Source: Embleya scabrispora (GTDB taxonomy: Bacteria > Actinomycetota > Actinomycetes > Streptomycetales > Streptomycetaceae). From it: a DNA stretch of 64,000 nucleotides. How positions within the stretch are numbered: the stretch's first letter is position 1; the number at the start of each line of letters is the position of its first letter. Below, in pieces: positions 1,459 through 49,041 of the stretch. Position numbers and translations under genes: made by a program. The notes under the pieces are model-generated. The model did not search any database. It was not told the DNA's origin and worked only from the letters and a program-made list of their open reading frames with translations. Location: NCBI RefSeq assembly GCF_002024165.1, contig NZ_MWQN01000001.1, positions 4,629,501-4,693,500 on the forward strand, written 5' to 3'.

Positions 1459-1704
1459 ATGACGCGACGCTGGTACGGATCCCGCCCGGGCGACACACCC
1501 CCACCCGACGACACCCCCGCCATCGAACTCATCGGCGGCCCACTCGACGGCGAATGGGTCGTGATCACCGGGAGCGGCGACCCGCCCTACCCCGACGGCC
1601 TCGCCCTGATCGCCACGCACGGCGCTTACGACGGCGGACGCAGCCACTACGAGCACGTCGACCCGCCGGACGGCAGGCTGCACTGGGTCGGCGACAGCGC
1701 CTAA
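1459..1704 (+). CDS. Small conserved-type hypothetical protein
   Basis: 81 residues including IELIGGPLDGEWVVI and SHYEHVDPPDGRLHWVG. This 'GGPLDG' beginning is common in short actinobacterial and phage proteins of unknown function. ATG start; the end faces the leftward lysis genes across a bidirectional hairpin. No membrane segment. Confidence 0.65.
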   Translation: MTRRWYGSRPGDTPPPDDTPAIELIGGPLDGEWVVITGSGDPPYPDGLALIATHGAYDGGRSHYEHVDPPDGRLHWVGDSA

Positions 1705-14646: not shown

Positions 14647-15561
14647 CTACGGGACGTCGGCGCCCTTGATGAGAACGGCGCGGTTGGCGTCCAAGGTCTT
14701 GGTGCCGTAGAGGCAGTCCACGCTGACGACCATCTGCTTCTTGTCCATGTCGTAGTCGTAGACCACCCTCAGACCGAAGCCCTTGTAGTTGGAGATGGCC
14801 GCGTCCCGCGCACCCATCGGCAGCTCCAGCGGCCGGAAGGCCAGGGCGAACGCCGACTTGTGGAAGGCGAGCCCTTCCTCGGTGGTGCTGTTGCCGCTGG
14901 TCTGTGCGGGCTTGGCGATGTTCTGCGTCATGTACGGGTCGAACCCGAACACTCGGCGGCCGAGGGACGCCTCGGTAAGGCCCTCGGTGGTGCCGCGCTT
15001 GTCCGCCTCGTGGAACAGCGGATCGCCGAGCCACTTCGCGGCGATGTTCGGGCCCACGACGGCGCGACGCTCGGTGGCCGGAACCTTCTGGGTGTTCAGG
15101 ACGCGGCCCGCGTCGATGAGGACGCGCGGGTTGTCCCACGCCCACTCGTTGTCCCCGGCGACGACGCCGACCTCCTGCACGATGTCGGTGCGCAGGGCGA
15201 GGATGTCCCGGTCGATCTTCTGGGCGATGGCCTCCATCGCCGGGGTGAGGAGTTGCTCGTCGAAGTCCTGGATCTTCAGCGTCATGTCCTCGGACGTGAC
15301 GGCGAAGGAGACGTCCGCGAAGTGGTTCAGCGTCATGTTGATGCTGTTCTCGGTCGCGTCCTGGACCGTGATGCCCGCCGCGCGGTTGTACTCGTTGGCC
15401 ACGAACGTCGTGGGCTTGCGAATGGTGATCGCGTCGCCTTGCTTGCGCGCGAACTCTGCCTCGTAGTCGCGGTGTACGAGCGACGCCATGACGGTCGTCT
15501 CGTACAGGTTCGCCAGTGCCTGCTGGGCGATGACCTGCGAGGTCAGGAAGGTGTTGGCCAT
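14647..15561 (-). CDS. Major capsid protein, P22 coat-like
   Basis: 304 residues. The start MANTFLTSQVIAQQALANL, followed by 'RKPTTFVANEYNRAAGITVQ' and 'IQDFDEQLLTPAMEAIAQK', belongs to the P22 coat protein group of the HK97 fold. Preceded by a scaffold and portal. It assembles into the icosahedral head. ATG with a GGAGG-type site before it. Confidence 0.9.
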   Translation of the reverse strand: MANTFLTSQVIAQQALANLYETTVMASLVHRDYEAEFARKQGDAITIRKPTTFVANEYNRAAGITVQDATENSINMTLNHFADVSFAVTSEDMTLKIQDFDEQLLTPAMEAIAQKIDRDILALRTDIVQEVGVVAGDNEWAWDNPRVLIDAGRVLNTQKVPATERRAVVGPNIAAKWLGDPLFHEADKRGTTEGLTEASLGRRVFGFDPYMTQNIAKPAQTSGNSTTEEGLAFHKSAFALAFRPLELPMGARDAAISNYKGFGLRVVYDYDMDKKQMVVSVDCLYGTKTLDANRAVLIKGADVP

Positions 15562-16430: not shown

Positions 16431-18335
16431 TCAGCTACCACTTGAGAAGTCGTCCCCGAGCTGGGCCCGGAGCCGCGCGAGCGAGAGGGCCTTCATGCGC
16501 TTGTCCGCAGCGGCGGCAACACCCGGCGTCTTCGCCTTGAGTTGGCCCCTGCGATACAGCCATTCGGCATCCAGCTCACGCCAGTTCATCAACGCCGGGT
16601 CCTCGTACCGGCGGCCCATCCTCGGCGGGCGTGCCGGGGGCGGCGGGTCGACATCGGGGATGGGCTTGTGCATGCTGTGCCGCTCGCTGTAAGCCAGCGC
16701 CTGAGCGCGCCCGGCGTCGGTGACGACACCGACTTCGTCGATCCACCCGCGGGCGTACAGCGCATCGAGCGCCTGATCACGGGCCCGGCCGTGGATCCCG
16801 ACGGTGCGGTACGGCAGCCTCTCGCCCGACTTGGTGCGCACCAGTTCGCGCGCATCGGGAGTGAGTGGTGGGACCTTCGTCAATGCTGCGCGGCGCGGAA
16901 GATCCTCGGTGCGCACCGACACCGCGAACTCTCCGGCCGGCCTCCTGTTGGACGCCGGGTCGTCGACTGCGTGCGCGGGCGCCGATGGTGTCGCCGTTGG
17001 TGCGGTAGCGGCGTGTGGCGTCGGGGTTGGCCTCGGCTGTGGCGTGATCGCCGCCGGGGGTGACGTTTGAGGTCGTGGTTGTGGCCGCGGCATCGGGGTC
17101 GGGGCCGCCGTCGGGCGGGGCGCCTGTACTGGCGGTCGGGCTGCCGGTGCAGACGGGGGCGCGGGAGGGCGTGGCGTCGGGTCAGCAGGACGCGCGGATG
17201 GACCGCCCCGCCCGGGGCGGCCCGCCGACGGCTTCTCTCGCTCCGGCTTTCGCTTCAGGCCCTTCGCGCCGGTCAGCTCCCTGAGCTTGGTCTGGCTCTC
17301 CGCCACCTTCCGCCGTGCGACCTTGGCAGTGTCCTCGTCGAGCGCCGCCGCTTCCCGCTTGCGCCACTTGCGGACTTGGCGCTCCAGGGCACGCTGGCGT
17401 TGCGTATCGGCATACGTCGCACCGGCCGGGTGCGGCACCGATTCGGGCGGAGTGGAGACGCCCGGCAGGTAGGCGGCGATCGAGCACCGGCAGTTCGGGT
17501 GCAGCAGGCCGGCGGCGCGGGCTTCGGGGAGGGATCCGGCTACTTTCACCGTGGCCCACTTGCCGTCCTCGGTGGCGTGCTCGACCATCACCGTGCCCGC
17601 CGTCGCGGCACCCGAGCGCCACAGGATCTTGCCCGCCCATTTGTCGCAGCGCGGGCAATGCAGGGGCTGGTCGGACACCATGACCATCGGTACGCGAGCC
17701 GCGCCCAGGCGATCCGAGTGGGCCTCGATCGCCGCCCGGCCTACTGCGGTGCGGAGCGCCATCTCGGCGTACTCGGCCATGCCCCACGCGCGCCCGCGGG
17801 TATCGACGAAGTTCACGATGCCCCGGTCGACGAACGCATCGAGCGCCCGCTGCGTGGCCTGCCTGCGGGTCTCCGCGCCCAGGGCCGGAGCCGCCGCGGC
17901 CTGGGCAATCACGCTGCGGTACACGTCCTGCGTCTGCCGCAGGATCGCGGTCCGCACCGGCGTCAGCGTGTCCAGGACGCTTGCGGCGAGGCGGTCGACG
18001 ACCGGCGCGGTGGGCAGCACCGACGCCACGACCGCAGCCTGCCCGACCGCGACCGCGCTGAGTTCCGCGACGGCCGCCTGCTGCCCGCGGTCGTAGGCCG
18101 TGGACAATGCCTCGCCGACCGTGCCAGCGGTCTCTCCGGCAAGGGCCTCGGCGATGCCCGCGAGTGCGCTGGACAGGTCTCCGAGCGCAGCCAATTTGCT
18201 CTCCGCCCAGTTGGGCAGCGACATGCCGGTCGCCAGGGTGCGCTTGATCGTGTCGATCAACACGTACTCGGCGGCCCGGTACAGGTCGCCGAGCACGCTG
18301 GCCAGGCCCTCGGCCAAGGCGGGGGACACCGGCAT
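16431..18335 (-). CDS. Minor capsid protein 2-like with Pro-rich linker and extra C-terminal domain
   Basis: 634 residues. Residues 1-300 are like the phage minor capsid protein (Phage_min_cap2) family, with the paired motifs CPRC (227-230) and HPNCRC (279-284) that probably bind metal. A Pro/Ala-rich linker of roughly 130 residues (about 370-490) separates this from a separate C-terminal module (about 500-634) containing TKSGERLPYRTVGIHGRARD and RARDQALDALYARGW. The family normally ends near residue 300-350, so this is an unusually long fusion. It lies between portal and scaffold. Confidence 0.82.
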   Translation of the reverse strand: MPVSPALAEGLASVLGDLYRAAEYVLIDTIKRTLATGMSLPNWAESKLAALGDLSSALAGIAEALAGETAGTVGEALSTAYDRGQQAAVAELSAVAVGQAAVVASVLPTAPVVDRLAASVLDTLTPVRTAILRQTQDVYRSVIAQAAAAPALGAETRRQATQRALDAFVDRGIVNFVDTRGRAWGMAEYAEMALRTAVGRAAIEAHSDRLGAARVPMVMVSDQPLHCPRCDKWAGKILWRSGAATAGTVMVEHATEDGKWATVKVAGSLPEARAAGLLHPNCRCSIAAYLPGVSTPPESVPHPAGATYADTQRQRALERQVRKWRKREAAALDEDTAKVARRKVAESQTKLRELTGAKGLKRKPEREKPSAGRPGRGGPSARPADPTPRPPAPPSAPAARPPVQAPRPTAAPTPMPRPQPRPQTSPPAAITPQPRPTPTPHAATAPTATPSAPAHAVDDPASNRRPAGEFAVSVRTEDLPRRAALTKVPPLTPDARELVRTKSGERLPYRTVGIHGRARDQALDALYARGWIDEVGVVTDAGRAQALAYSERHSMHKPIPDVDPPPPARPPRMGRRYEDPALMNWRELDAEWLYRRGQLKAKTPGVAAAADKRMKALSLARLRAQLGDDFSSGS

Positions 18336-18338: not shown

Positions 18339-19904
18339 TCACCCCTCGATCGGATCCGACTCCTGCCCGAAGTCGTCGCCCGGCGGCAGCTCGTCGGCGC
18401 CGAACGCTGTCGGGTCCTCCGTTGCCATGCCGGTCTCGGCCAGGATGCGCGCCACCTCGGCGCTCACCTGCGACGGGTCCCAGTCCGGATGGACGATCTC
18501 GACGAGCGTCTGTGTCGAAGCGGCCTGGGCGCGACGGAGCGCGTCGACCGTGTTCGCCAGTGTCAGCATGTCCTCGCGGATACCGTCCGCGAATGCCACG
18601 GCGGGCGGCTCGGTCGAGACCTTCGCGCCGAAAACTTCGCGGTACGTCGCCAGCCAGTTGCCGAGCGCGTGCGACAGCTCCGGGCGCCACGTGAGGACTT
18701 TGTCCGCCTTGGTCAGGCCAGTCAGCCGCTCCTTGCTGTCGACCTCCGTGGCGGTGATGGCGACCTGGTCACTCGCGCCGAACGTCTGCGTGCTGTACCC
18801 CGCCGACGTCAGGATGCGCTCGACGAGGTCGTCCACCGTGGCCTTGTGCTCGGCCGCGCGGATCGCGAACTGCGTGACCGCCAGGGTGAGTGAATTGCCC
18901 GGCCGCTGGAGGGCGTTGAGGGTTGCGTACACCTCGCGGTCAACGTCGAATCGCGAGCCGCGCCCTGGGCCGTTCGAGTCGAGCATCGATTCGGGGACGT
19001 GGACGCGGCCTTTGGCCAGACGGATGTCACGCATCCAACTGCCGTACGCCTCGTCCAGGTTGTCCATCAGCGACACGACGCCGTCCAGGTCGGAACGCCC
19101 GAGGTGCTCCAGACCGGGCATGCTCCGCCACCTGCGACTCATGCGGTTGGCAACGTACGTCGGCCCGAGCCCTTTGATGTTCGTGGCGATGCGGCCCTCG
19201 GAGTCGACCTCACGGGCCAAACCCGCCAGCGCGGGCATGTCCTCCAGCGGCACGGGCATGCCGAGCTGGTCCCGTGTGCCCTGGTAGAGGCCGTGCATGA
19301 CCCACCCGGGCTCATGCCGTTCCAGGTGCCGCCAGACCTGCCCGTCGTCCTCGGCCATGATCCGCCAGAATGTGACCGCGCGGAGCATGCCCCAGGTGAA
19401 CTCGGGAACGGCGCGGTCGGCGTGGACGGTGTCGATCCACGGCCGGTCCGAGATGTCGGTGTCGTGGACCGTGCGCAGGTAGACGCCGCCGAGCATGGCG
19501 GACACCTCGGCTGCGTTCTTGAGGCGGGCGTGCGCCCGGTCGTCCAGGTACTCCGTGAGCTGGTCCTGGGTGCCACGGTCCGCCGCCGTGATCTTCGGGG
19601 GCTCGGCAAACAGCAGCCGGGCGGACATGGCGCAGATGTCGCCCGCGATCGGCACGTGGATGTGCGAGCGCTCTTCTCCGGCCGGTGTGGGCTGCCCCCA
19701 CCACCAGCGGGACAGGCGGCCGACGAGCCCGCCCGCGTACTGGCCCCGCTTGGGGTCGAATCCGCTGGTGACGCCACCGCCGTACAGGCTGGTCAGCCGG
19801 TCGGGGTCGCCCGCCCACCAGGTGTCCCAGATGTGCATGTCGGTGAGCGCCGGCTTGAGGTATCGCGGCGGCCATGGCATGTTCCCGCCCTCGGGCAGAG
19901 GCAT
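18339..19904 (-). CDS. Phage portal protein
   Basis: 521 residues with an ATGA overlap to the large terminase. Features of SPP1/gp6-type actinophage portals: IHVPIAGDICAMSARLLFAEPP near residue 85, helical centre, SNGPGRGSRFDVDREVY, and a C-terminal acidic part. Forms the dodecameric DNA gate at one head vertex. Start MPLPEGG chosen because of coupling; the longer frame upstream is shadow. Confidence 0.87.
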   Translation of the reverse strand: MPLPEGGNMPWPPRYLKPALTDMHIWDTWWAGDPDRLTSLYGGGVTSGFDPKRGQYAGGLVGRLSRWWWGQPTPAGEERSHIHVPIAGDICAMSARLLFAEPPKITAADRGTQDQLTEYLDDRAHARLKNAAEVSAMLGGVYLRTVHDTDISDRPWIDTVHADRAVPEFTWGMLRAVTFWRIMAEDDGQVWRHLERHEPGWVMHGLYQGTRDQLGMPVPLEDMPALAGLAREVDSEGRIATNIKGLGPTYVANRMSRRWRSMPGLEHLGRSDLDGVVSLMDNLDEAYGSWMRDIRLAKGRVHVPESMLDSNGPGRGSRFDVDREVYATLNALQRPGNSLTLAVTQFAIRAAEHKATVDDLVERILTSAGYSTQTFGASDQVAITATEVDSKERLTGLTKADKVLTWRPELSHALGNWLATYREVFGAKVSTEPPAVAFADGIREDMLTLANTVDALRRAQAASTQTLVEIVHPDWDPSQVSAEVARILAETGMATEDPTAFGADELPPGDDFGQESDPIEG

Positions 19905-21184
19905 CAGGCAGCCACCTCCAGGTGGGTCGGGATGTAGGGGCGCCACAGCGCCTCGGTGGTACGGATGCCGTAGCGGAGCGCGTCGCAGGAGTGGTCGTTC
20001 TCCTTGAGCGGTTCGTCCCGACCGGCCTCCGCCGCCGCGTCGTCCCAGGCGTAGCCCGGGAGTTCGTCGATCAGGCCGACCGCCGACTCGTGCACCACCA
20101 GGCGCCCGGCGGCGAACAGGCTGGACACCGTGCGGATGCCGTCGAGGACGGCGTTGTCGGCCTGGGACACGCCGGTCACGCCGTCCCGGTGGAGTTGCTC
20201 GATGTAGGACGACGCCGACGGGTCGACGATCGTCCACTCGGGCTGCACGCCGAGCACGTTGGACCCGGGATGCGGCACTGCGGCGAGCCATCGCCGCCGG
20301 GCCTGGCTGTACTCGGCGTCCGTGAGCTGGCGCCGGGCGAGCCGCGAGTCGTGCCGGTACTCGGACACGACGTAGAGCCGGCGGTCGACGCCGAGGCCGA
20401 TCAGCACGTCGCTGTAGGGGTTGACGGTGCCGTAGTCGATCGCGTCGCACAGCCACCGGTCGATGCGCGGCAGGTCACGGACGACGTGGCGTTCGACGTC
20501 GAACATGTCGTAGATCGAACCCTCGGACTGCGTCCACTGGCCCTGGATGAACCGCCTGTACCAGAGGCCCACGTACTCGGCCTTGAGCGCCCGGACGTAG
20601 GCCGGGTCCAACGAGGGGTTGTCGTCCAGGGTGAAGTGCCATGACCTCAAATCGAGTTCGCCCTCGCGCTGGAGGAACTCCCGCTTGAGCCAGTGCCCCG
20701 GGTTGTCGGGGTTTGTCGTGGCCAGGAGTCGGGCGCCCGCAATGGACAGGCGCGCGAGCATCTGCCTGAAGAAGTCCTTCGGCAGGAGCGACGCTTCGTC
20801 GATGTACGCGAGGCAGACCGTTGCCCCGCGGATCTTGCCCTCGGACCGCCTGTCGTTCGCCCCGATCAGGTGCACCGTGCGGCCCATGATCACGGCCGTC
20901 GACGCGCCCGGTGTCCACCTGATCAGCCTGGACAGTGGCCCGAACAGGGCCTGGTCGACGAGGGGTTCCATGATGTTGCGGCCGATGGTGTCGAGTGTCC
21001 GGCCGGTGATGATGATCAGGCCCCGGGGCGGGGCCGCCGCCACGGCCGCCAGGAACGCGATCAAGCTCGCGATGGTCTTGCCCGATCGGACCGCGCCGTG
21101 CCAGATGCAGATGCGGGCGTTCGCCTCGACGATGCTCTGGATCTGCCGCGGCGACAACAGCCGCCGGATCTCCTCGGGGAGCAT
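19904..21184 (-). CDS. Terminase large subunit
   Basis: 426 residues. ATPase motor: Walker A GAVRSGKT (30-37), Walker B CLAYIDEA with D129-E130. Nuclease half: DAIDYGTVNPYSD, WTIVDPSASS and a C-terminal NDHSCDALRYG supplying acidic metal ligands, as in Terminase_6/PBSX-type enzymes. It cuts and pumps phage DNA into the head. Coupled to the small subunit (ATGA). Confidence 0.93.
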   Translation of the reverse strand: MLPEEIRRLLSPRQIQSIVEANARICIWHGAVRSGKTIASLIAFLAAVAAAPPRGLIIITGRTLDTIGRNIMEPLVDQALFGPLSRLIRWTPGASTAVIMGRTVHLIGANDRRSEGKIRGATVCLAYIDEASLLPKDFFRQMLARLSIAGARLLATTNPDNPGHWLKREFLQREGELDLRSWHFTLDDNPSLDPAYVRALKAEYVGLWYRRFIQGQWTQSEGSIYDMFDVERHVVRDLPRIDRWLCDAIDYGTVNPYSDVLIGLGVDRRLYVVSEYRHDSRLARRQLTDAEYSQARRRWLAAVPHPGSNVLGVQPEWTIVDPSASSYIEQLHRDGVTGVSQADNAVLDGIRTVSSLFAAGRLVVHESAVGLIDELPGYAWDDAAAEAGRDEPLKENDHSCDALRYGIRTTEALWRPYIPTHLEVAA

Positions 21185-23643: not shown

Positions 23644-24213
23644 CTACGGCAGAGCGGGCGTGCCGGGTGACGGCCCGTCCGGGTCGGGGCAGTTCATGCG
23701 GATGGCCGGCCAGCGGTCGGCCGTGAAGTCGCCGCCGGTGTACAACTCCGAGGCACGCCCGTCCTTGAGCCATCGGCCGCTGCAGACGTACACCTTGCTG
23801 GTCTCGGAGCGAACGACGGTGATGTCGACCTTCTCCATGCCTTCGCCGCGGTTGAACAGCTTCGAGTACGAGCGGATCACGTCCTGGGCGCCGGGGATCG
23901 TGGCGTCGGGCACGAGGAGTTCGACGTTGCCCGTCCTGGCCTTGAGGTCCTTGATTAGGACGGTGTAGTGCGGAACGGGGCCGCTCGGATCGGTCAGGTC
24001 GGGTGCGTCGCCGCTGTCGCTGCTGCGAACGACCGCGAAGCCGATGGCGAGCGCCAGGACGACGACCACGAGGACGCCGATCCACACGCCTGTCTGTGCG
24101 CTGCGGCGCGGAGGCGGCGGCGGGGGATGGTAGCCCGGCGGCGGTTGCTGGTAGGGCTGTTGCGGACCCCATTGGCCCGGCTGTCCGGGCTGTTGCGGCG
24201 GCTGGTAGCTCAT
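23644..24213 (-). CDS. Membrane protein with Pro/Gln-rich N terminus
   Basis: 189 residues. Residues 1-36 are Pro/Gln/Tyr-rich (cytoplasmic), 42-64 form a membrane helix (GVWIGVLVVVVLALAIGFAV), and the rest would be outside, with Cys pair C-S-G-R / N-C-P. This design is very common among Streptomyces cell-envelope proteins. It stands isolated between hairpins and could be expressed in the lysogen; that is inference. Confidence 0.7.
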   Translation of the reverse strand: MSYQPPQQPGQPGQWGPQQPYQQPPPGYHPPPPPPRRSAQTGVWIGVLVVVVLALAIGFAVVRSSDSGDAPDLTDPSGPVPHYTVLIKDLKARTGNVELLVPDATIPGAQDVIRSYSKLFNRGEGMEKVDITVVRSETSKVYVCSGRWLKDGRASELYTGGDFTADRWPAIRMNCPDPDGPSPGTPALP

Positions 24214-24305
24214 GATCCCCCCACGGGTCAGGTCCCGGGGAGGCTACGCCCACCAGCCGTCGGAGGGCGGGTGCTTGGCCGAGTCGTAACCGATTGCCGC
24301 CGAGG

Positions 24306-24587
24306 TCAGGTCCGTTCGGGCCAGTGCCAGGTGCCGCCGGCGTGTTCGGTCTCGTCCTGGATGATGTCGCGGTTGAAGAACATCCCGGTTGGGTTCAGGA
24401 CGCACAGGCCGACCGCCCAACATCCGGTGCCGCCGTCGTTGGGGCAGCCGTCGTGCGGTTCGTCGGTGCGGTAGGCGGGAACTTCGGTGACGATGGCCGC
24501 GCGGCACTGTGAGGTGTACTCGCCGCCGGGGGTGCCGTAGCTGACGTAGTGGACGATCCGCCCGACGGTGGGCGCGGGTTCGGTCAT
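24306..24587 (-). CDS. Conserved-type small hypothetical protein
   Basis: 93 residues with 'GRIVHYVSYGTPGGEYTSQCRAA', 'HDGCPNDGGTGCWAVGLCVLNPTGMFF' and 'GGTWHWPE'. The same pattern (HY.S.GTP.GEY...CRAA...V.NP.G.FF....HDE) recurs in actinophage and prophage proteins near the terminase. Function unknown. Bases 24,214-24,305 after it hold no convincing gene. Confidence 0.65.
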   Translation of the reverse strand: MTEPAPTVGRIVHYVSYGTPGGEYTSQCRAAIVTEVPAYRTDEPHDGCPNDGGTGCWAVGLCVLNPTGMFFNRDIIQDETEHAGGTWHWPERT

Positions 24588-24628
24588 GGCGGCCTCCAGC
24601 CACTCGGGGACAGGGGCATCGGATGTGC

Positions 24629-24665
24629 CGAGAGCCCCGGGCCGGTGCGGCTCTCGGGGCTCTCG
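24629..24665 (-). terminator. Strong hairpin separating early and late regions
   Basis: Perfect 11-bp inverted repeat CGAGAGCCCCG (24,629-24,639) / CGGGGCTCTCG (24,655-24,665), with a nested alternative AGAGCC/GGCTCT. It lies downstream of the HTH gene 24,738-24,950 and is a likely end of early transcription, or an antitermination control point. Confidence 0.62.
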
Positions 24666-24737
24666 AAGTGCGTTCGGGCACGACTCGCCTGTGCGGTTAT
24701 CGTGCGCGCTCAGGATGCACGACCGGTGATCACCCGG

Positions 24738-24950
24738 TCAAGCAGGCTGTTTCCGCTGCTCACGCTGCTGCATCGCGGCCCGCAGGTCGCCGACGTAGTA
24801 CAGCGGGTACCGCTCGGTCCCGCCCCAGCGGCGGAGTTGGCCTCGGCGGACCATGCCGCGCAGTGCGGCCGGGCTGAGCCCGGTGATCTCGGCGGCGAGG
24901 TCGGCTCGCATGATGCCTGGCGGGAGCATCGGCCGGGGTTTCGGTCGCAT
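24738..24950 (-). CDS. Small HTH protein, excisionase/MerR-like
   Basis: 70 residues. 'ADLAAEITGLSPAALRGMVRRGQLRRWGG' followed by 'YPLYYVGDLRAAMQQR' is the winged-helix pattern of MerR/Xis-type proteins (residue-type and wing 'RYPLYYVGDL'). These bind DNA to control genes or excision. Its location far from the integrase makes a regulatory role as likely as excision. Confidence 0.62.
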   Translation of the reverse strand: MRPKPRPMLPPGIMRADLAAEITGLSPAALRGMVRRGQLRRWGGTERYPLYYVGDLRAAMQQREQRKQPA

Positions 24951-25004
24951 CCTCCGATGATCGCACCGGGCCGGGCTACGGGCGCCATTCCTCGCGGTCG
25001 TCGG

Positions 25005-25157
25005 TCACGCTCCACCTCCGGCGAGCACTCGTGCCGCCACGACGACGGTGACGATCGGCGTGCTGATCATGGCGCTGAGGATGACGCTCTCCCGGTAGGC
25101 GGGGTCAGACCACCAGTCGCGCAGCGTGTCGGTGATGCGGTGCGCGAGCCAGGTCAT
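25005..25157 (-). CDS. Very small membrane protein
   Basis: 50 residues: an amphipathic start (MTWLAHRITDTLRDWW) followed by one membrane helix (AMISTPIVTVVVAARVLAGG). Coupled to the upstream gene by ATGA. Such small proteins accompany plasmid transfer (Spd-like) or phage early regions. Role unknown. Confidence 0.5.
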   Translation of the reverse strand: MTWLAHRITDTLRDWWSDPAYRESVILSAMISTPIVTVVVAARVLAGGGA

Positions 25158-25540
25158 GCGTTCTCCTCGACTGCGGGCGGGCGGACGCCGTCGGGTGCTA
25201 CCGCCACCTCCGTCAGCGCGCGGGCACCGTCGTTGAGCAGCCTGCCGACGTGGGCCAGGTACTCGTCGCGCAGAACACCCTCGGGTAGGTGCGGGGCGGT
25301 TGCGGTCGCCAGGCTGGACATCTCGGTCAGCAGGGTCACGGCGATCTCGGCGAGCCGAGCAGCCATTGCCCGGGGCGCAGTCCACAGTTCGGTGACCGCT
25401 GCCTGCACCTCGGGCGACGGCTGACCGGCGGCCGCTCGGGCGACCTCGCGTCGCGCACGGCTGTGGCCGAGGGTCGGTGCGAGGCGGGTGGTGAGGGCGT
25501 TCCGGAGGTCGGGGCTCAGCGGGACGGCGATGGTGTCCAT
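25154..25540 (-). CDS. Hypothetical helical protein
   Basis: 128 residues, almost wholly helical and Ala/Leu/Arg-rich, no known domain. ATG start with GGGGAGG 8 bases before. The end overlaps the small membrane protein gene by four bases, so the pair is probably co-translated. Confidence 0.58.
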   Translation of the reverse strand: MDTIAVPLSPDLRNALTTRLAPTLGHSRARREVARAAAGQPSPEVQAAVTELWTAPRAMAARLAEIAVTLLTEMSSLATATAPHLPEGVLRDEYLAHVGRLLNDGARALTEVAVAPDGVRPPAVEENA

Positions 25541-25569
25541 GGACAGATCCTCCCCTATCGGGCCGACGC

Positions 25570-25782
25570 TCACAGGGCGTTCCGCTCGAGCGAGAAGTGG
25601 AGCGTGGTGGCTTTGTTGGTGCGGATCTCGCGGAGGGCGTGGGCGAGGATCGTCTGATACGCCGTCTCGCGGGTGTCGTTGGGCGTGGGGCTGTATGTCC
25701 CCTGGTCGGTGTAGGTCCCCATCCCGCCGTCGGGCAGGGTCCATTGCAGGGTGATCACGTAGTGGTACGTGCCGTCGGCCAT
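25570..25782 (-). CDS. Small hypothetical protein
   Basis: 70 residues: 'GTYHYVITLQWTLPDGG..TYTDQGTYSPTPNDTRETAYQTIL' and 'LHFSLERNAL'. This sequence style is found in small proteins of Streptomyces integrative elements and plasmids. ATG after GGGAGA. Its leader contains the CTGACGC repeat cluster. Confidence 0.62.
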   Translation of the reverse strand: MADGTYHYVITLQWTLPDGGMGTYTDQGTYSPTPNDTRETAYQTILAHALREIRTNKATTLHFSLERNAL

Positions 25783-25810
25783 GTTGGTCTCCCGTGTGGT
25801 GTCGAATGAG

Positions 25811-25907
25811 GCGTCAGGTGGTGGCGTCTGACGCGTCAGGTCGTCGCGCGCATGCGCACGCATAGGGCCCGGATCGCCCTGACGCCTGACGCGTCTGACG
25901 CGTCAGG
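25811..25907. repeat. Iterated CTGACGC / GCGTCAG repeat cluster (clt-like or operator)
   Basis: A 17-bp direct repeat GCGTCTGACGCGTCAGG occurs at 25,824-25,840 and 25,891-25,907 (67 bp apart). Each contains the palindrome CTGACGCGTCAG. Further half sites are GCGTCAG at 25,811 and CTGACGC at 25,879 and 25,886. GCCCTGACGC (25,876-25,885) also pairs with GCGTCAGGGC (25,900-25,909). The cluster begins 3 bp after the FtsK-like gene's stop region and ends 29 bp before the next gene start. It may be a recognition site for the FtsK-like protein, an operator, or a terminator. Confidence 0.8.
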
Positions 25908-25912
25908 GCAGG

Positions 25913-27856
25913 TCAGGCGGGGACGAGGTCGCGGATGCGGTAGTTGCCGCGGCCGTCGTCCTCCAGCAGGCCCGCTTTGACGAGGGCTTGGAGTTCGCCG
26001 GTGACCCAGGTGCGGGCGCGGCCGACCCGCGCGCGGACGTCCCGAAGATCGTGCGGCCGGAACTCGGTGCGGCCGGCGCGGTTCATCTCCACGATTGTCT
26101 CCCGCAGCAGCGCGACGGCCTGTTCACGGGGCATTTCTTGAGTGGCCGGCCGGGCGAAGGTGATCGACGGCGTGGTGGGCACCTCGATCGGCGCGTCGAC
26201 GTCGGGCTCGGGCAAGTCGGGCTCGTGGTTGACGGGCAGGTCAAGGCGATCGGTGTCACGAACGATCACAGCGGGCCCCTGGCGGGGGGCGGGCATGGTC
26301 GTTGTCGTGGCGTCCCGGTGCCGGTTTGCGTAGGCGCCGCCCGCGGCGGCGGCGGACACGGCGTCCAAGCTCGCGCGGATCTCGGCGTACCCCTCGACGG
26401 CCTCGGCGAGCTGCTCGGCGGTGATGCGGTAGGCCCGCATGGGCGTGGCGTACCGCTCCTCGTCCACGCCGGGTGCCACGAGGTAGGCGTAGCCGGCCCG
26501 GCGGTTCGCCCACGCTTCGGGGGCGGCGCCCGCGGCGCGAACCTCCGGCGGGAGGGCCATCTTCGCCGTCGTGCTGCCCTTGACGCCGAAGCACCAGGTG
26601 GCGCCGATCTGTTCGCGGTCGTCGCCGGACATGATGCCGACCGAGGGCCGCTGGAGGGAGATCACGATGAACACGCCGGCGGAGCGCGCGGTCTCCAGGA
26701 GGCCGGTGATGTCCTCGCCGATTTCGTCGCGGAAGAGCTTGGCGGCCTCTTCCCACCACACCACGAGGGCCGGCATGTCGTGGGTCTCGAAGACGTCGGG
26801 GGTCCACTGCTTGTGGCCCCACCGGCCGAGCTGGTCGGCGCGGGCGGCGATGACGTCGGGGAGGGCGCGGATCTGGTCTCGGCATCCGGCGGTGTCGGTG
26901 ACGACCCAGTCGCCGCCGGCCCGTACCGCGCCGAGGGTTTGTTCGCCTTTGACGGGGTCGCCGAGCCACAGGCAGGCGTCGCGGCGGGTGAGGAGGTCGG
27001 CCCAGGTGACTTCCCCGCCGGAGGATTTGCCGCTGCCGTTCATGCCGAACACGCCCAGGTGGGTGGCGTTGCGGCCTGCTTCGGGGTCGCCGTTGAGCCA
27101 GAACACGGCGGGGATGCCGTCCTCGTACAGGCCGACAGCGAAGCCGTCGCCGATGCTGCCGCCGGGGGCTGATGGGCCGGGCCAGGGGATGGTGTGTTTG
27201 AGGTGGTCGCGCGGGACGACGATCAGTTCGGCGCGGCCCGCGTCGTCGGGGTCGGCTTGGACGCGGACGCTGTTGCGGCCGACGCCCAGGGCCGCTGCGA
27301 TGGTGCGGGTGGCGTCCTGTACGCGCTCGATGTCGCCTTCGGGCGAGACCACGTGGAGTGGTGCCTTCACCCGGCCGCCTTCGACGGCGGGCGGGCCGAT
27401 TTCGACGCCCTTGAGGGCGCGGACCTGGGCGGCGAGGCCGCTGTCTCCGGCCGTGAGGGCTTTCGGGCCGTCCGAAGTGGTGCCGCCGTTGCGGGTGATG
27501 CGGCGGATCGTCCACGACAGGGGCGTGGCGATGCCCAGGATGGCCCAGGCGGACAGGGCGCCGGGGCTGGTGGGGTCGATGGCGGCGGAGAGGGCGATGC
27601 CGCCGGTGGCGAGGCCGACGGTGGCGGTGGCGTGCGCGCGCCACAGCGGTGCGGACGTGGGGGTGATGTGGCTGGTGCCCCAGGTGACGGCGGCGGCGAG
27701 GAGCGCGCTGGCCATGGCGGGGCCGGGCTGGTCGTGCCATGCGGTGTGCGCGGCGTGGGCGAGGCCGTAGGTGGCGGGGGTGGCGAGCCAGGCGGGGACG
27801 TAGGGGGCGACGGTCGAGAGGGCGCGTTCTGCGGCGCGTTGCTGGAGGGCGGCCAT
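25913..27856 (-). CDS. FtsK/TraB-like DNA translocase
   Basis: 647 residues. Two or three membrane helices within residues 48-116, then a RecA-like motor: Walker A GMNGSGKSS (271-279), Walker B ALVVWWEEA (363-371), and 'SAGVFIVISLQRPS' behind it. The last 70 residues (about 575-647) form a winged helix (LRDVRARVGRARTWVTGELQALVKAGLLEDD). This is the layout of Streptomyces plasmid TraB and AICE transfer ATPases, which pump double-stranded DNA between hyphae after binding short repeats. Coupled to the upstream small gene (TAATG). Inside a complete phage genome it is unexpected. Confidence 0.85.
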   Translation of the reverse strand: MAALQQRAAERALSTVAPYVPAWLATPATYGLAHAAHTAWHDQPGPAMASALLAAAVTWGTSHITPTSAPLWRAHATATVGLATGGIALSAAIDPTSPGALSAWAILGIATPLSWTIRRITRNGGTTSDGPKALTAGDSGLAAQVRALKGVEIGPPAVEGGRVKAPLHVVSPEGDIERVQDATRTIAAALGVGRNSVRVQADPDDAGRAELIVVPRDHLKHTIPWPGPSAPGGSIGDGFAVGLYEDGIPAVFWLNGDPEAGRNATHLGVFGMNGSGKSSGGEVTWADLLTRRDACLWLGDPVKGEQTLGAVRAGGDWVVTDTAGCRDQIRALPDVIAARADQLGRWGHKQWTPDVFETHDMPALVVWWEEAAKLFRDEIGEDITGLLETARSAGVFIVISLQRPSVGIMSGDDREQIGATWCFGVKGSTTAKMALPPEVRAAGAAPEAWANRRAGYAYLVAPGVDEERYATPMRAYRITAEQLAEAVEGYAEIRASLDAVSAAAAGGAYANRHRDATTTTMPAPRQGPAVIVRDTDRLDLPVNHEPDLPEPDVDAPIEVPTTPSITFARPATQEMPREQAVALLRETIVEMNRAGRTEFRPHDLRDVRARVGRARTWVTGELQALVKAGLLEDDGRGNYRIRDLVPA

Positions 27857-28233
27857 TACTTCTTGCCCCCGATCTTGAAGTCGGGCTTTTTGGCGGCCTT
27901 GGGCCTGGTGGTGCCGTAGGCGTCGTCGAGTTCGGGGGCCATGTGCTTGGAGAAACTCGACTTGGCGCGTGCCGCGCAGACGGCGGCGGTGTTGAACGCG
28001 TCGGCGGCGGACTGGATGTGGCCCGCGATCAGGGACGCGCGTTTTTTCGACGAGTGATCGGCGTCGGGGTGTTCGGGGAGTTCGGACAGGAGTCCGCGGA
28101 TTTCGTCGGCGAGGTAGGAGATGTGGGTGGCGCCTTCGCGTCCGATTTTGCGGATGCGTTCGCAGAGTTCGTTGAAGGCGATGTCGTCGGTGACGTCCTG
28201 GTCGCCGATTGCTTCGACGATGGAGCGAGCCAT
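27856..28233 (-). CDS. Small protein coupled to the FtsK-like gene
   Basis: 125 residues, helical with a basic Lys-rich end (AAKKPDFKIGGKK). The stop overlaps the FtsK-like ATG (TAATG), so they are likely translated together. In Streptomyces integrative elements a small helical gene frequently stands in this position; function unknown. ATG start with GACAGGA before it. Confidence 0.62.
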   Translation of the reverse strand: MARSIVEAIGDQDVTDDIAFNELCERIRKIGREGATHISYLADEIRGLLSELPEHPDADHSSKKRASLIAGHIQSAADAFNTAAVCAARAKSSFSKHMAPELDDAYGTTRPKAAKKPDFKIGGKK

Positions 28234-28298
28234 GGTGGGGTCCTGTCGTGGGCCCGGGGGCGGCGCGCGGCGCCTGCTCGCCCGGGGTGTGGTGAAGG

Positions 28299-29231
28299 CT
28301 AGTTGGCCGAGCTGACGAGCTTTTCGACGTCGGCGCGGGCGTACATCTTCCAGCCGAGTTCGTTGCGCCCGGCGAGCGGGACGATGCCGTTGGCGGCCCA
28401 GTCGCGGAAGGTTGCCGGGTGGACGCCGAGCATTCCGGCGGCCTGGCTCGCGGTGATGCGTGCGGGCTCGGGCTCCGCGCTCGCGGGTCGCATCTCGGGC
28501 TCGCCGGTCGCGTCGTCCGCCCGGTCGTGGGTGTCGGTGTCCTCGCCGGCCGGCGCCTCGGCCGCCACCTCGAGGGCCTGCGGCTCGGGGGTGGGCGCGG
28601 CCTTCGCGTGCTTGCGCTCGACCTTCGCGGTTTTGGGCGCGCGGGTCGCGCGTTGGGCGAGCCACACGTCGAGGAGGCCGCGTACGCGCTGGAGCATCAC
28701 GGCGACGAGGTGCGCGCCGAGGGCGATGCACAGGTTCGGCGCGGCTGCGGCGAGCGTGACGTGCGCCCAGGTCATCGACGCGGACTCGTGGGTCACGCGC
28801 GCCGCTTCGAGGCCGTGCGCGACGTTGAGGACCGTTGACACCGCGGTCAGACCGACGACGGTGCCCATGGCGGCGCGGTAGCCGGCGCGGCCGTAGAGGG
28901 TGATAGCAGCGATGATCGCGACGCCGTCGAGTCCGTCGATCGCCAGGGGATACCACCGGCGGACCTCGCCCAGGCCCACGTCGACGGCGGTGTCGCGCAG
29001 CGGTACCCAGGACACGCGCATGCCGACGATCACGGTGAGGACCAGGAGGCCGGCCACGATCGTGAACGCGAGCATGGCGGCCGAGACGTGCCAGCCGGTG
29101 ACGCGGGGCTCGGGGGTCGAGCGGGGTGGGCGCGTGGGTCGCGGGGGTGCCGCGTGGGGGTGATGTGTGGGCGTGTCCTGGGGGGTGATCACCCGGGAGC
29201 GCCCACGTTGGATAACGTGCGTCGCAGCCAT
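28299..29231 (-). CDS. DUF2637 membrane protein fused to C-terminal HTH domain
   Basis: 310 residues. Residues 1-45 are Pro/His-rich; about 48-180 hold four membrane helices (MLAFTIVAGLLVLTVIVGM; LDGVAIIAAITLYGR; GTVVGLTAVSTVLNV; HVTLAAAAPNLCIALGAHLVAVML) of the DUF2637 family, common in Streptomyces plasmids and integrative elements (Spd-type proteins). After an acidic linker the last 60 residues read 'ITASQAAGMLGVHPATFRDWAANGIVPLAGR', an excisionase/MerR-like HTH. It may tie DNA or regulation to the membrane. Upstream in the FtsK-like operon. Confidence 0.8.
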   Translation of the reverse strand: MAATHVIQRGRSRVITPQDTPTHHPHAAPPRPTRPPRSTPEPRVTGWHVSAAMLAFTIVAGLLVLTVIVGMRVSWVPLRDTAVDVGLGEVRRWYPLAIDGLDGVAIIAAITLYGRAGYRAAMGTVVGLTAVSTVLNVAHGLEAARVTHESASMTWAHVTLAAAAPNLCIALGAHLVAVMLQRVRGLLDVWLAQRATRAPKTAKVERKHAKAAPTPEPQALEVAAEAPAGEDTDTHDRADDATGEPEMRPASAEPEPARITASQAAGMLGVHPATFRDWAANGIVPLAGRNELGWKMYARADVEKLVSSAN

Positions 29232-29268
29232 GACGAGGTCCGTTCTCGTTCGTGGTCAGGTCCTGCGT

Positions 29269-29295
29269 CCGGTGCTACCAACACCGGCCAGGGCC
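29269..29295. promoter_or_regulatory. Leader hairpin before the DUF2637 gene
   Basis: CCGGTG (29,269) / CACCGG (29,282-29,287) with a 7-nt loop, directly followed by the GGCCAGGGCC self-complementary element, then AAAAACGG on the minus strand. It stands 40-65 bp before the DUF2637 start. The 281-bp region 29,232-29,512 is the least GC-rich part of this area (ATATCACGGATTATGAT at 29,319) and probably holds the promoter. Confidence 0.3.
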
Positions 29296-29512
29296 GTTTT
29301 TCTGTTCTCGTCCCGTCGTTATATCACGGATTATGATGGTCTGTTGCGATTCTTTCGAGGGTCGCGTAATGATCAAGTAGCGGGCGCGGCCCGCGAGTTC
29401 GACGGTGCGCAGGTCGAGCGGTCGCGGACGGCGGTTGTCGGTCCGGAGAAATGCGAAGCGCCCGCAGCCCGCCCTCCGGCGCGAGGGTCGAGTTGCGGAC
29501 GCGAGGGTCGCG

Positions 29513-29761
29513 TCAGGTCGCGCGCTTGCGCTCGACCCGCGAGTAGTCCTCGCCCGGCAGGCGCTCGACCCGCGCGCCGGGGACCCTCATCACGAGGGTG
29601 TGTTCCTCGCCGTTGACCCAGCCCTGGTACTCGATCAGGGCCCACCACGCGCCGGTCGCGTCCCGCTGCCACCAGCGGATGCGGGCGTCGAGCCGGCCGC
29701 CGCCGGGTTGGGCCACCCGAACTGGCGGGTGGTGCGCGGCAGTCGGCGGGCGCGTGTCCAT
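29513..29761 (-). CDS. Small hypothetical protein
   Basis: 82 residues with a beta-hairpin-like core (RIRWWQRDATGAWWALIEY, VNGEEHTLVMRVPG). ATG start. Similar short Trp-rich proteins occur next to replication or transfer genes of actinobacterial elements. Function unknown. Confidence 0.62.
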   Translation of the reverse strand: MDTRPPTAAHHPPVRVAQPGGGRLDARIRWWQRDATGAWWALIEYQGWVNGEEHTLVMRVPGARVERLPGEDYSRVERKRAT

Positions 29762-29765
29762 GGCG

Positions 29766-30062
29766 TCATCGTGGCCGGTTCGGTCCCCAGATGTCTCGCT
29801 CCCCGGGGATGACGCAGTCGGAGTCGTACACCCAGTCGTCGGCGTAGTGGCGGCGGTCGTCGCCGGTCCACTCGGTGTGGATGATCACGGCGCCGGATCG
29901 GAGCTGGGTCCAGCCGGCGATGCAGCCGTGGCGCCAGGCGCCGTCGATGGCGAGGAGGGCGTAGGGCCAGGGGTGGGGGTGGCCGCCGTGGCGGATGGTG
30001 TCGTAGTCGCGGGTCGGGGGCCAGGCGAGGCTGCGTGCGGGGGCGGGGTGGTCGGTGTCCAC
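29766..30062 (-). CDS. Small Trp/His-rich hypothetical protein
   Basis: About 98 residues from GTG 30,062 (another GTG at 30,080 is possible). Contains 'ALLAIDGAWRHGCIAGWTQL', 'VIIHTEWTGDD' and 'WVYDSDCVIPGE'. No known domain. Tail-to-head with the following small gene. Confidence 0.6.
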   Translation of the reverse strand: MDTDHPAPARSLAWPPTRDYDTIRHGGHPHPWPYALLAIDGAWRHGCIAGWTQLRSGAVIIHTEWTGDDRRHYADDWVYDSDCVIPGERDIWGPNRPR

Positions 30063-37730: not shown

Positions 37731-39257
37731 TCAGGACGCATCCGGAGCCTCCCGGTAGGGCCTCGCAGACCGGTGGACGAGCGCGTTCCGCTCACCCTTC
37801 TCGACCACCACGAAGCCTTCGCGAACGAGCAACTCCATTGCCGCGCGGACGGCCTCTCGCTTGCCGCCGGTCAGCGCCTCCAACGACGCCTTCGACAAGC
37901 CCGGGGTCTCCTCGACGATGCGGCTGACCTTCTCCATGAGGGCCGTCGGCCGGTGCGTACCGCCCGCAGACCCGGGAGGGCCGTCGTAGGGCCGCGGCGA
38001 CCGCAACTCGACCCGCACGCTCCGGTCCTCGGACGAGAACATCTGCAGGTCGCCGATCACCGCGCCGACCGCGTGTTCCCGAACCCGGCCCGGCCGGTCC
38101 TTCGCCACACGCACCCGACTGATGCCGTGCGCGCCGTACCCGAACGGCTTGATCGGCTCGACCAGGTAGGCGGCGCCGTCGATGCCGGCGAGCTTGTGCT
38201 GGGCGCCCATGGCGTACCGACCACGCTTCTCCGCGTCCTTGACGACGTGGTCGATCATCGCCACGGCCGGGCCCTTGCGGGCGACGAACCGCGGAACCGC
38301 CTCGTAGAACTGGGCGGCGCCCTTGTTGTCGAGCGGGTCCAGGCCGTGAAGGTTCATGGCCTCGGTGACGCCGTCCACGACGCACAGGCCGGGCCGGTCC
38401 CGCTCGATGACGGCGCCGATGACGGACCGGGCCGCGTCATCGATCGGGATGTCGGGTCGGCAGTACCGCAGGCCTTGCAGGATGAGGTCGGCGGGGATGC
38501 CGAGCGCCATGAGGCGCCCGACGATGCCCTCGGCGGAGTCCTCGAAGTCGAGGTACAGAACGACGCCGCCGGCGCCGATGAGCTGGGCGCAGGCCAGCAG
38601 CAGCAGCCAGGTCTTGCCGGATTCCGACTCCCCCGACACCGAGTGGATCTTGCCCGCGTACAGGAGGGACTCGCCGTCGTCGCGCTGCAGGAACTCGGGT
38701 GCGGCGTTGAGCTGTTTGCCCGCGACTACGTCGGTCAGGTCGAGCGGCGCCCAGGGGTGGGCGACGTCCAGGGTGGCGGCCGTCCGCTTCTCGACGAAGC
38801 TGGTGATGAGCTTCCCGGCGAGTTCGCGATCGTGGTCGGGCGAGTGGCCGTTCTGCATGAGTCGGGTGCCCAGGGCGATCTCGGAGCGGATCTCCGCGTG
38901 TTCGTGGATGATCGCCGCGTAGTACTCGGCTTGGCCAACGACTGCGGCCTGGGAGTACACGGTGTGGAGGTAGGGCGCGCCGCCGACGCGTTTGATGTCG
39001 CCGCTGCGGGTCAACTCGTGGTTGAGAGCGATCGGATCGGTGGGCGTGCCTTCCGCATGGAGGCGGGACAGCGCCCGCCACAAAGTCTCGTGGGCCGCCC
39101 GATAGAAATCACCCGGGTCCATGAGCGCAGCGGCGCGAGCGTGCTCCGCGGGGTCGTACATGGACAGTCCGAGGATGCGCATCTCGGCGTCGATGTCGTG
39201 GGGCGGCAGGCGCGTCAGGGGTCCCTCGTCCTCGCGCAGGTAATGGACGTTGTCCAC
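37731..39257 (-). CDS. DnaB/RepA-type replicative helicase
   Basis: 508 residues. Residues 15-140 are like the DnaB N-terminal domain (LPPHDIDAEMRILG; AHETLWRALSRLHAEG). The RecA/AAA_25-type motor has Walker A GESESGKT (209-216) and Walker B LCVVDG (291-296). A winged-helix end (about 430-490, SLEALTGGKREAVRAAMELLVREGF) follows. It probably unwinds DNA at phage replication. The iteron array begins 4 bp after its stop codon. GTG start. Confidence 0.85.
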   Translation of the reverse strand: MDNVHYLREDEGPLTRLPPHDIDAEMRILGLSMYDPAEHARAAALMDPGDFYRAAHETLWRALSRLHAEGTPTDPIALNHELTRSGDIKRVGGAPYLHTVYSQAAVVGQAEYYAAIIHEHAEIRSEIALGTRLMQNGHSPDHDRELAGKLITSFVEKRTAATLDVAHPWAPLDLTDVVAGKQLNAAPEFLQRDDGESLLYAGKIHSVSGESESGKTWLLLLACAQLIGAGGVVLYLDFEDSAEGIVGRLMALGIPADLILQGLRYCRPDIPIDDAARSVIGAVIERDRPGLCVVDGVTEAMNLHGLDPLDNKGAAQFYEAVPRFVARKGPAVAMIDHVVKDAEKRGRYAMGAQHKLAGIDGAAYLVEPIKPFGYGAHGISRVRVAKDRPGRVREHAVGAVIGDLQMFSSEDRSVRVELRSPRPYDGPPGSAGGTHRPTALMEKVSRIVEETPGLSKASLEALTGGKREAVRAAMELLVREGFVVVEKGERNALVHRSARPYREAPDAS

Positions 39258-41837: not shown

Positions 41838-42058
41838 CCGGGCCTCCGGTGGCGGCCGGTCGGTACCGGCTCCCACATGGAGCCGGGCGCGACGTACCAG
41901 TCCTCATCGGCGAGGGTTTGGCCCGGGGCGCGGTGTGGCCGAGGCGGGATCGTCACGGTGGTGACGACGTGCGCGCCGTTGCAGACCGGGGCTGCGGTGC
42001 GAGGGCCCCGCCGGGCCGGAACGACCCGGCCCAGCAGGGTGGCAATGCGGCCCGTCAC
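41834..42058 (-). CDS. Small hypothetical protein
   Basis: 74 residues, Pro/Arg-rich, with 'LADEDWYVAPGSMWEPVPTG'. GTG overlapping the exonuclease stop by GTGA. No recognised family. Confidence 0.55.
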   Translation of the reverse strand: MTGRIATLLGRVVPARRGPRTAAPVCNGAHVVTTVTIPPRPHRAPGQTLADEDWYVAPGSMWEPVPTGRHRRPG

Positions 42059-42798
42059 GAGACGCCGCCCGCGTAGGGCACCACCGGCCACGACCGATCG
42101 ATCGCCGCCGTCGGGTCCTTGCGCCGCAGGTACTCCTCGAACGACGCAGCCCAACGGGCATGCCACACCACCTGCCACGCGTGCAGCTGCGCGGCCGGCA
42201 CCTGCAACTCGGTGAACTTCTCGGCGATGCGGACCGCAACGTCGAGAGCGGCCTGCGCGTCGGCGTCGGCGGCGTGCGCCCGATCGAACTTGACGCCGTA
42301 GTGCGCTGCGAGGGCATCCAGCTTGCGGGAGCCCTTGCGCCACTTGTCCGCCGCCCGATCCAGCACGAGCGGGTCGACGACGTGCGGCTCTTGGCCTTCG
42401 AGGCGATCCACCAGGGTGGGCAGGTCGTGTCGGCGGCACTCGCGGTCGAGGACCGTCAGGTCGTAGGGCGCGTTCATAATGATCAACACCGAGCGGGTGG
42501 CGACCTCGTCCGCGAGACGTTCGCAGATGTCGTCGATCACCAGGGCGGCCGGTTGGCCGTGCTCGCGGGCGTGCTCCGTCGATACGCCGTGGACTGCGGC
42601 GGCCTCGTCCGGGATGTCGATCCCGGGGTCGGCCAGCCACAGGACCGGTTCCCGGCCCGGGACTACGAGCGCCGCGGTGACGATCCGCGCGGTGTCCACG
42701 TCCACCCCGGTCGTCTCGCAGTCGTACGAGGCCAGGCAACCCGTGTGCCAGGGCGCGCTCGCGACGCCGCCCAGGTGCGGTTGCACGAAGTCGCTCAC
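42055..42798 (-). CDS. DnaQ-like DEDDh 3'-5' exonuclease
   Basis: 247 residues. Exo I motif DCETTG with VD nearby (about 25-33), Exo II NAPYDLTVLDRE (about 108), Exo III HAADADAQAAL (about 174), so D, E, D and H-D ligands are in place. Found in the polymerase epsilon/RNase T group. In phages it trims 3' ends in replication and recombination. Confidence 0.87.
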   Translation of the reverse strand: MSDFVQPHLGGVASAPWHTGCLASYDCETTGVDVDTARIVTAALVVPGREPVLWLADPGIDIPDEAAAVHGVSTEHAREHGQPAALVIDDICERLADEVATRSVLIIMNAPYDLTVLDRECRRHDLPTLVDRLEGQEPHVVDPLVLDRAADKWRKGSRKLDALAAHYGVKFDRAHAADADAQAALDVAVRIAEKFTELQVPAAQLHAWQVVWHARWAASFEEYLRRKDPTAAIDRSWPVVPYAGGVS

Positions 42799-48793: not shown

Positions 48794-49041
48794 TAATGGC
48801 GAAAGGGGGCGGCCAGGTGGGGCTCGACGAACAGGAGTACCAGTACGCCGTCGTAGAGGAGCCCGGGCTCACGACCACGGACCCGGTGGTGATCGCCGAG
48901 TGGCGGTCCGGGAGGCTGGTCATCGGGTGCGCTCCGGGGGAGACGACTCCGCAGTTCCGCGCGGCACTTGCCGCAGCACTCAAGCGTTGGCGCCCGGGCC
49001 GGAAAGTGGACCGGGACGCCGACGAGGAGCCCCAGGCGTAA
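48781..49041 (+). CDS. Small hypothetical protein next to integrase
   Basis: 86 residues from ATG 48,781; ATG 48,796 and GTG 48,817 (with GGGGG before it) are shorter choices. Core 'YQYAVVEEPGLTTTDPVVIAEWRSGRLVIG' then a helix 'QFRAALAAALKRW'. Its end overlaps the convergent integrase end by about 60 bp. Function unknown; could modulate the integrase. Confidence 0.55.
   Translation: MFVRIMAKGGGQVGLDEQEYQYAVVEEPGLTTTDPVVIAEWRSGRLVIGCAPGETTPQFRAALAAALKRWRPGRKVDRDADEEPQA

Follow-up and report, generated by a model that had tools for sequence, protein, structure and literature searches.

Within a 64,000-nucleotide stretch of the Embleya scabrispora genome (assembly GCF_002024165.1, contig NZ_MWQN01000001.1; C1:4629501-4693500 of 10.96 Mb), referred to here as the window, we examined a prophage that carries genes resembling a plasmid transfer system. 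A membrane-protein gene (28299-29231), a TraA-like gene, a TraB ATPase gene and a repeat cluster (25811-25906) probably constitute a Streptomyces-type cassette for the transfer of double-stranded DNA, built into a temperate phage and acting by the mechanism proposed below. Judged from its sequence, the cassette most likely can transfer double-stranded DNA. Its components are as follows.

25811-25906: putative transfer locus clt, with seven copies of CTGACGC at 25811 (minus), 25828 (plus), 25833 (minus), 25879 (plus), 25886 (plus), 25895 (plus) and 25900 (minus).
25824-25840, plus strand: first copy of the 17-bp unit GCGTCTGACGCGTCAGG.
25891-25907, plus strand: second copy of the same unit.
25913-27856, minus strand: traB, a putative FtsK/TraB-type double-stranded DNA translocase of 647 residues, assigned by profile match, FtsK fold and place in the tree.
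27856-28233, minus strand: traA-like gene of 125 residues, overlapping the traB start, assigned by its match to NF041213.
28299-29231, minus strand: membrane protein with a C-terminal MerR-like helix-turn-helix domain, assigned by four hydrophobic segments and Pfam near-matches.
29330-29358, minus strand: sigma-70-like promoter match preceding the operon of three genes, the only one in 24000-30000 (0.1 expected); a consensus match only.

The assignment of the ATPase to the TraB type and of the repeats to its clt is well supported at the level of sequence. The TraB protein matched the NCBIfam profile NF041214 (plasmid_TraB) with an E-value of 1.6e-182, residues 13-642 aligning with model positions 3-633. 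Its reading frame is intact, the Walker A motif GMNGSGKS occupies residues 271-278, and the N-terminal part contains three weakly hydrophobic segments (Kyte-Doolittle 1.1-1.3). The AlphaFold2 model, built on a 24-row alignment (mean predicted local distance difference test score, pLDDT, of 77), had FtsK motor domains as its best structural matches (6t8o, E 2.2e-17), with the conjugation protein TcpA further down the list. In this predicted model the C-terminal 70 residues follow the order H-H-H-E-E, as in a winged helix, and the domain modelled alone (pLDDT 82) gave the winged-helix order of helices and strands as well. A search of the PDB with the C-terminal domain alone returned nothing at E <= 0.001 (all matches were above 0.03, and many, not all, were winged-helix proteins); because these matches are weak, we count the winged-helix assignment as weak support. 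The initial annotation had described a TraB-like ATPase with membrane helices, a Walker A motif and a C-terminal winged helix, followed directly by 7-bp repeats and a duplicated 17-bp unit, and our analysis agrees with both descriptions, the helices being represented by the weak hydrophobic segments and the winged helix by the predicted fold.

An ATPase of this kind could alternatively serve phage replication or packaging rather than transfer. FtsK-like ATPases do occur in some phages (phrog_1358 and phrog_3551; Bacillus phages), and the TraB protein matched both of these families; it also weakly matched a terminase family (phrog_2666, E 2e-4), and its best PHROG, phrog_24831 (E 4.2e-86), is a family without known function. 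However, the prophage has its own terminase large subunit and DnaB helicase, and the ATPase has a TraA-like gene and repeats of the clt type beside it. Moreover, the likeness to TraB extends over the full length of the protein, whereas phage FtsK proteins match only its motor part: searches of 50,697 isolated-phage records gave 1 and 68 matching records, in none of which 80% of the TraB length was covered. We thus consider a replication or packaging role very improbable, and the reading as an ordinary FtsK packaging or segregation ATPase was rejected as the best one on account of the separate terminase and DnaB and of the full-length TraB likeness.

The three genes of the cassette follow one another on the minus strand, beginning with 28299-29231 and continuing with 27856-28233 and 25913-27856. 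The TraA-like protein matched NF041213 (plasmid_TraA) with an E-value of 7.7e-10. The C-terminal domain of the membrane protein resembles MerR_1 just under the Pfam cut-off (21.0 versus 21.6 bits), and HTH_17 reached 19.1 versus 27. This protein had been labelled DUF2637 in the initial annotation, a label that was not borne out: Pfam DUF2637 (PF10935) gave no match to it at E <= 0.1, and a profile comparison with the neighbours of other TraBs gave none either. Relatives of the protein were sought in IMG/VR and none was confirmed. A phage protein at the equivalent place in another locus (L082:1695-3068) does match DUF2637. As to the content of the module, the initial annotation was right about traB and the repeats, but it had overlooked the traA-like gene and a GntR-UTRA regulator, which is encoded in the left arm of the prophage, beyond the window.

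The seven CTGACGC copies lie 7-102 bp 3' of the TraB stop codon. The unit GCGTCTGACGCGTCAGG has exactly two occurrences, and the palindrome CTGACGCGTCAG is present in two copies. Over the whole window, CTGACGC was not enriched (22 found, 20.8 expected). In 4000 simulated 150-bp stretches (Markov-1) no 7-mer exceeded four copies, and among 2554 real 150-bp segments of the window seven copies of a 7-mer were found in two, both overlapping the CTGACGC cluster; with 240-bp segments, 13 of 1594 held at least seven copies of a 7-mer. The clustering by itself is only moderately rare in the window, which makes it suggestive and insufficient as proof, and the motif shared across the TraB family is for this reason the stronger argument. 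The compound pattern of the cluster occurred once in the 10.96-Mb genome, and the exact 21-bp repeat string had no match in IMG/VR.

To compare the motif across the family we assembled 41 traB genes: that of the window, those from 4 of 54 plasmid records, 13 loci, 11 IMG/VR loci, 10 places from a survey of 101 genomes of the family, one in the host genome and one in a genus relative. L063 was removed as a copy of L037, leaving 40 rows. In 27 of the 40 loci, the 250 bp that follow traB contained three or more copies of CTGAC(A/G)C, with 0.0-0.21 expected, and in 21 there were at least four copies, more than in any other 250-bp segment of the same locus. Among the 16 rows of phage context (see below), 13 had at least three copies, and 9 had at least four together with the locus maximum. 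The commonest form is CTGACAC; CTGACGC is the form of the window and of L058 (eight copies), and L062 has both (CTGACGC five times). In plasmid pWTY27, according to the available text of PMC3583192, clt comprises 16 bp inside the tra gene and 159 bp behind it, its TGACACC repeats are footprinted with DNase by Tra, and a 129-bp clt deletion lowers transfer about 1000-fold. These comparisons make it very probable that the CTGACGC repeats form the transfer locus clt.

The repeats could instead be operators for a regulator and not docking sites of TraB. The palindrome CTGACGCGTCAG occurring twice and the GntR-UTRA regulator on the prophage would both fit operators, as would a second CTGACRC cluster that we noticed at the traB start, about 2 kb before the traB stop, in seven phage loci (L035, L038, L046, L047, L049, L051 and L052). 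However, the copies of the motif in the 27 loci follow the gene instead of lying at its promoter, and the motif matches the footprinted transfer locus of pWTY27, so that operators seem a quite unlikely explanation.

A further form of the repeat, CGTGCGC, was found in a clade of three loci (L028, L030 and L065). One of them is the second TraB relative of the host genome (L030; G000:C1:2639229-2641229), with CGTGCGC five times behind the gene; a single host may therefore contain two transfer systems that differ in docking motif. The three loci share WVSR in the recognition helix, and a link between helix and repeat type was considered and rejected: as they form one clade they represent a single event, which we did not use as evidence.

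The cassette lies within one bounded element. The prophage is 54,606 bp long and its left end is 4,035 bp before base 1 of the window. It splits comEC, the 3' part of which begins at about 50571 while the 5' part ends 4,035 bases to the left of the window; comEC is uninterrupted in two genus relatives aligned across the site, and a third relative also matches comEC, in two pieces. The main features of the prophage are given below.

1-50571: part of the prophage in the window, defined by the split comEC and its junctions against the uninterrupted site of the two genus relatives.
2807-4246, minus strand: endolysin (phrog_13480, E 8.4e-37).
7678-10827, minus strand: tail tape measure protein (phrog_1272, E 6.8e-28, and other tape measure families).
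14647-15561, minus strand: major head protein (phrog_283, E 3.2e-70).
16431-18335, minus strand: head morphogenesis protein (phrog_12049, E 9.2e-108).
18339-19904, minus strand: portal protein (phrog_533, E 1.6e-102).
19904-21184, minus strand: terminase large subunit (phrog_2, E 6.4e-45).
37731-39257, minus strand: DnaB-like helicase (PF00772, E 1.1e-21; phrog_19).
42055-44605, minus strand: three genes for an exonuclease, an Erf-like annealing protein and a YqaJ/RecE-like exonuclease.
48980-50524, minus strand: large serine integrase (PF00239 and PF07508 on the longer open reading frame 48980-50737; the ATG start, inside the prophage, was chosen by reading).

A scaffold-type gene is also present among the head genes, and SSB and RusA genes were found as well. 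With a terminase, portal, major capsid and tape measure protein, the element is a tailed phage (Caudoviricetes), and its head, packaging, tail, lysis, replication and recombination genes agree with the initial annotation, which had placed the ATPase module, as a transfer-type unit, inside a complete phage. A tandem of a phage and an actinomycete integrative and conjugative element (AICE) was ruled out, since the comEC junctions bound a single 54.6-kb element with the tra genes between those for replication and packaging. No AICE-type Rep (RepSA, DUF3631 or Prim-Pol) was found among the subset of prophage proteins scanned with Pfam, and DnaB is present.

TraB was found in phage context, with a terminase in the same element, in 16 of the 40 loci: the window, plasmids pCQ3 and pCQ4, L035, L038, L064 and all ten loci L045-L054 (L053 is a partial TraB reading). 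These sixteen include 10 of the 11 loci from IMG/VR. In these phages the cassette stands alongside several unrelated terminase types (phrog_2, phrog_9 and phrog_38); phrog_2 was matched in only 3 of the 11 IMG/VR records, the rest being recognised through other terminase families. In 13 of the 16 phage loci, TraB and the terminase share a strand by their coordinates, with the terminase about 4-18 kb downstream. For the remaining 24 rows, no phage gene was detected in the stretch examined; several are plasmid or AICE-like, and some contigs are too short to judge. In two linear plasmids with distant TraBs, the annotation of the stretches inspected named no phage gene. In the survey of the family, TraB was found at E <= 1e-60 in 13 of 101 genomes and in 0 of 14 controls; at the looser E <= 0.001 the search matches 9 of the 14 control genomes.

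One of the phage loci, in S. olivoverticillatus (L038, L193-L195; G117:C3, about 420-482 kb), has TraA, TraB and the repeats upstream of terminase and portal. It sits in a 758-kb contig with non-phage genes on either side, as seen by eye, and because of these flanks L038 is likely a second integrated prophage with the cassette. Two open reading frames taken by eye for integrases, one in L033 and the other at G117:C3:416893-417957, had no Pfam match.

In the tree of the 40 rows, the TraB of the window is sister (support 97/92) to a clade of 20 TraBs, 13 of them from phages; L064 joins below this grouping with weak support (82/69). Two rows of the 20-row clade, L045 and L038, were scanned with NCBIfam, and both exceed the curated cut-off for TraB. 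The distribution of phage and other contexts requires seven changes on the tree, and AICE-type loci lie inside the phage-rich clade, namely L041 (DUF3631 and an integrase) and L037 (an integrase). Given these loci, the cassette seems to be exchanged between AICEs and phages.

Several results weigh against the reading as a transfer cassette. The TraB bit score of 608 is below the curated equivalog cut-off of 800 for NF041214, so we file the protein as a homologue nested in the TraB tree and not as that equivalog; a Pfam scan of it matched no family, and it sits on a long branch (1.59). The TraA-like protein, at 39 bits, is below the cut-off of 80 for NF041213 and is called TraA-like only. Six 150-bp segments elsewhere in the window (37426, 54976-55076) contain six copies of other 7-mers, and 13 of the 40 loci are without three CTGACRC behind traB, several of these showing other repeats (CGTGCGC, GTGACAC, CTGTCAC, CTGACAG). 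The terminase is on the opposite strand in 3 of the 16 phage loci (L050, L053 and L054), which means that the gene order is not universal. Nudix and Pycsar-effector-like genes follow traB in some plasmids. Finally, among the best 80 of 288 relatives of the terminase, 37 of which had at least 7 kb upstream, tblastn with TraB gave no match and the TraB profile gave one weak match (L152, E 9e-6). The phage type thus does not need the cassette, which is an acquired option. In L092, the nearest relative by terminase (89% identical), we saw by eye membrane-protein genes at the tra position (L092:2527-9492) and no ATPase; L092:5107-6093 has, by eye, a possible C-terminal winged helix, and two L092 proteins scanned were without a Pfam match.

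Such an acquisition could have left the cassette as a passenger, that is, a tra module that entered the phage by recombination from an AICE or plasmid and is carried without function. The seven context changes on the TraB tree, together with the AICE-type loci in the phage-rich clade, indicate that the module moves between element types, and its absence from close terminase relatives would also suit a passenger. Against this, the reading frame and Walker A motif are intact, a winged helix is predicted, the cluster keeps the family motif, and TraA-TraB is recurrent in many phages. We regard a non-functional passenger as unlikely and retain the transfer cassette as the explanation.

The TraB and TraA homology, the Walker A motif and motor fold, the predicted winged helix, the family motif at the clt position and the bounded prophage can be read in the sequence; repeat binding, excision, transfer, its direction (between mycelia or within one) and its control are inferred. 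The serine integrase would excise the prophage, and a TraB ring sitting in the membrane would dock, through its C-terminal winged helix, on the CTGACGC cluster of the circular excision product. The FtsK-type motor would then drive the DNA, with both strands intact, through a septum or into an adjacent hypha, and the phage would re-insert into comEC of the recipient. By its gene content the element may thus have two ways of spread, by virions and by mating, as the initial annotation had proposed. Alternatively, the cassette could serve for spread inside one mycelium only, TraB moving phage DNA through cross-walls of the lysogen or of a newly infected hypha and so infecting more compartments without mating. 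In gene position and domain layout the membrane/helix-turn-helix protein (28299-29231) is like spread-type membrane proteins, by analogy only. However, the known role of TraB and clt, in the available texts of PMC3583192 and PMC3218068, is transfer between mycelia, and the two kinds of movement are not mutually exclusive. We consider spread restricted to one mycelium a possibility deserving attention, although a doubtful one.

More generally, and with slightly less than even confidence, we suggest that conjugative temperate phages are recurrent in Streptomycetaceae. Unrelated tailed phages, maintained as plasmids or integrated, would have taken up TraA-TraB-clt, usually upstream of the packaging genes, and would have in it a second, particle-free means of moving between hyphae, with chromosomal DNA possibly carried along; isolation by plaques would have missed them.

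The closest known counterparts are pCQ3 and pCQ4 (NC_013449, NC_019307), in which, as in the window, a membrane-type protein, traA and traB are followed by phage structural genes. Their TraBs are about 41% identical to that of the window, and upstream of tra they have a GntR-family (pCQ3) or GntR-UTRA (pCQ4) regulator; the GntR-UTRA gene of our prophage is in the left arm. They differ in being 85-kb circular plasmids, while the element of the window occupies comEC in the chromosome and encodes a serine integrase, and the terminase, portal and capsid of the window have no match to their counterparts at E 1e-4. In the annotation of pCQ4 a ParB gene stands next to one for an AAA ATPase; neither had a significant tblastn match in the prophage (E 0.74 for ParB, none for the ATPase), other partition families not having been searched. 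Streptomyces plasmid-phages are described as both conjugating and forming phage particles in the available text of PMC4170104, which cites the pFP4 paper (Chen 2012), and pZL12 is cited as conjugating in that of PMC3583192. Both pZL12 and pFP4 are lysogenic as plasmids, unlike the chromosomal element of the window, and the likeness of pZL12 is one of description.

The TraB/clt systems of pSVH1 and pWTY27 share with the window a single translocase and short clt repeats; the accessible part of PMC3583192 reports winged-helix recognition for pSVH1 and TGACACC repeats at the tra gene end for pWTY27. These systems are plasmid-borne, and the repeat of the window is CTGACGC. AICEs are likewise chromosomal, with a site-specific recombinase and Tra, and some of their TraBs fall in the same clade (L037, L041), but their defining modules are int, rep and tra (PMC3218068, available text), whereas the window element has capsid, tail and terminase genes. 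The streptococcal prophage Phi1207.3 is also similar, having 52 kb, serine recombinases and a place in comEC, and it is reported to conjugate (PMC4260502); it belongs to another phylum, and the word FtsK does not occur in the available text of that paper. The shared comEC site may be a coincidence, or comEC may suit such elements. Two phage-plasmid papers (PMC10879196, PMC12977533) deal, in their accessible text, with mobilisation by relaxase and oriT, Streptomyces being absent from the main text. Among the literature matches listed, most subscription papers being outside the search, no integrated actinobacterial prophage with TraB and clt was recognised. The combination of conjugation unit and phage is less new than the initial annotation implied, because Streptomyces plasmid-phages are already described as conjugating and forming particles, and pCQ3 and pCQ4 carry traA-traB; what is new here is that the prophage is integrated in the chromosome and has the TraA-TraB-clt cassette intact.

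If our reading is true, one element would have two independent infection routes, virions and double-strand transfer through cell contact, and the line between phages and conjugative elements would be blurred for integrated prophages, beyond the plasmid-phages. Such a phage could bypass receptor loss, and prophages could become chromosome-mobilising agents in antibiotic producers. TraB-type transfer systems need no relaxase, and CTGAC(A/G)C offers a sequence handle for recognising them where relaxase searches would miss them.

The left arm of the prophage (window 1-1704 and the 4,035 bases leftward) contains rightward cargo genes, among them a SpoIIE-type phosphatase (294-986) and, by eye, a long helix-turn-helix-like protein and a possible toxin-antitoxin pair.

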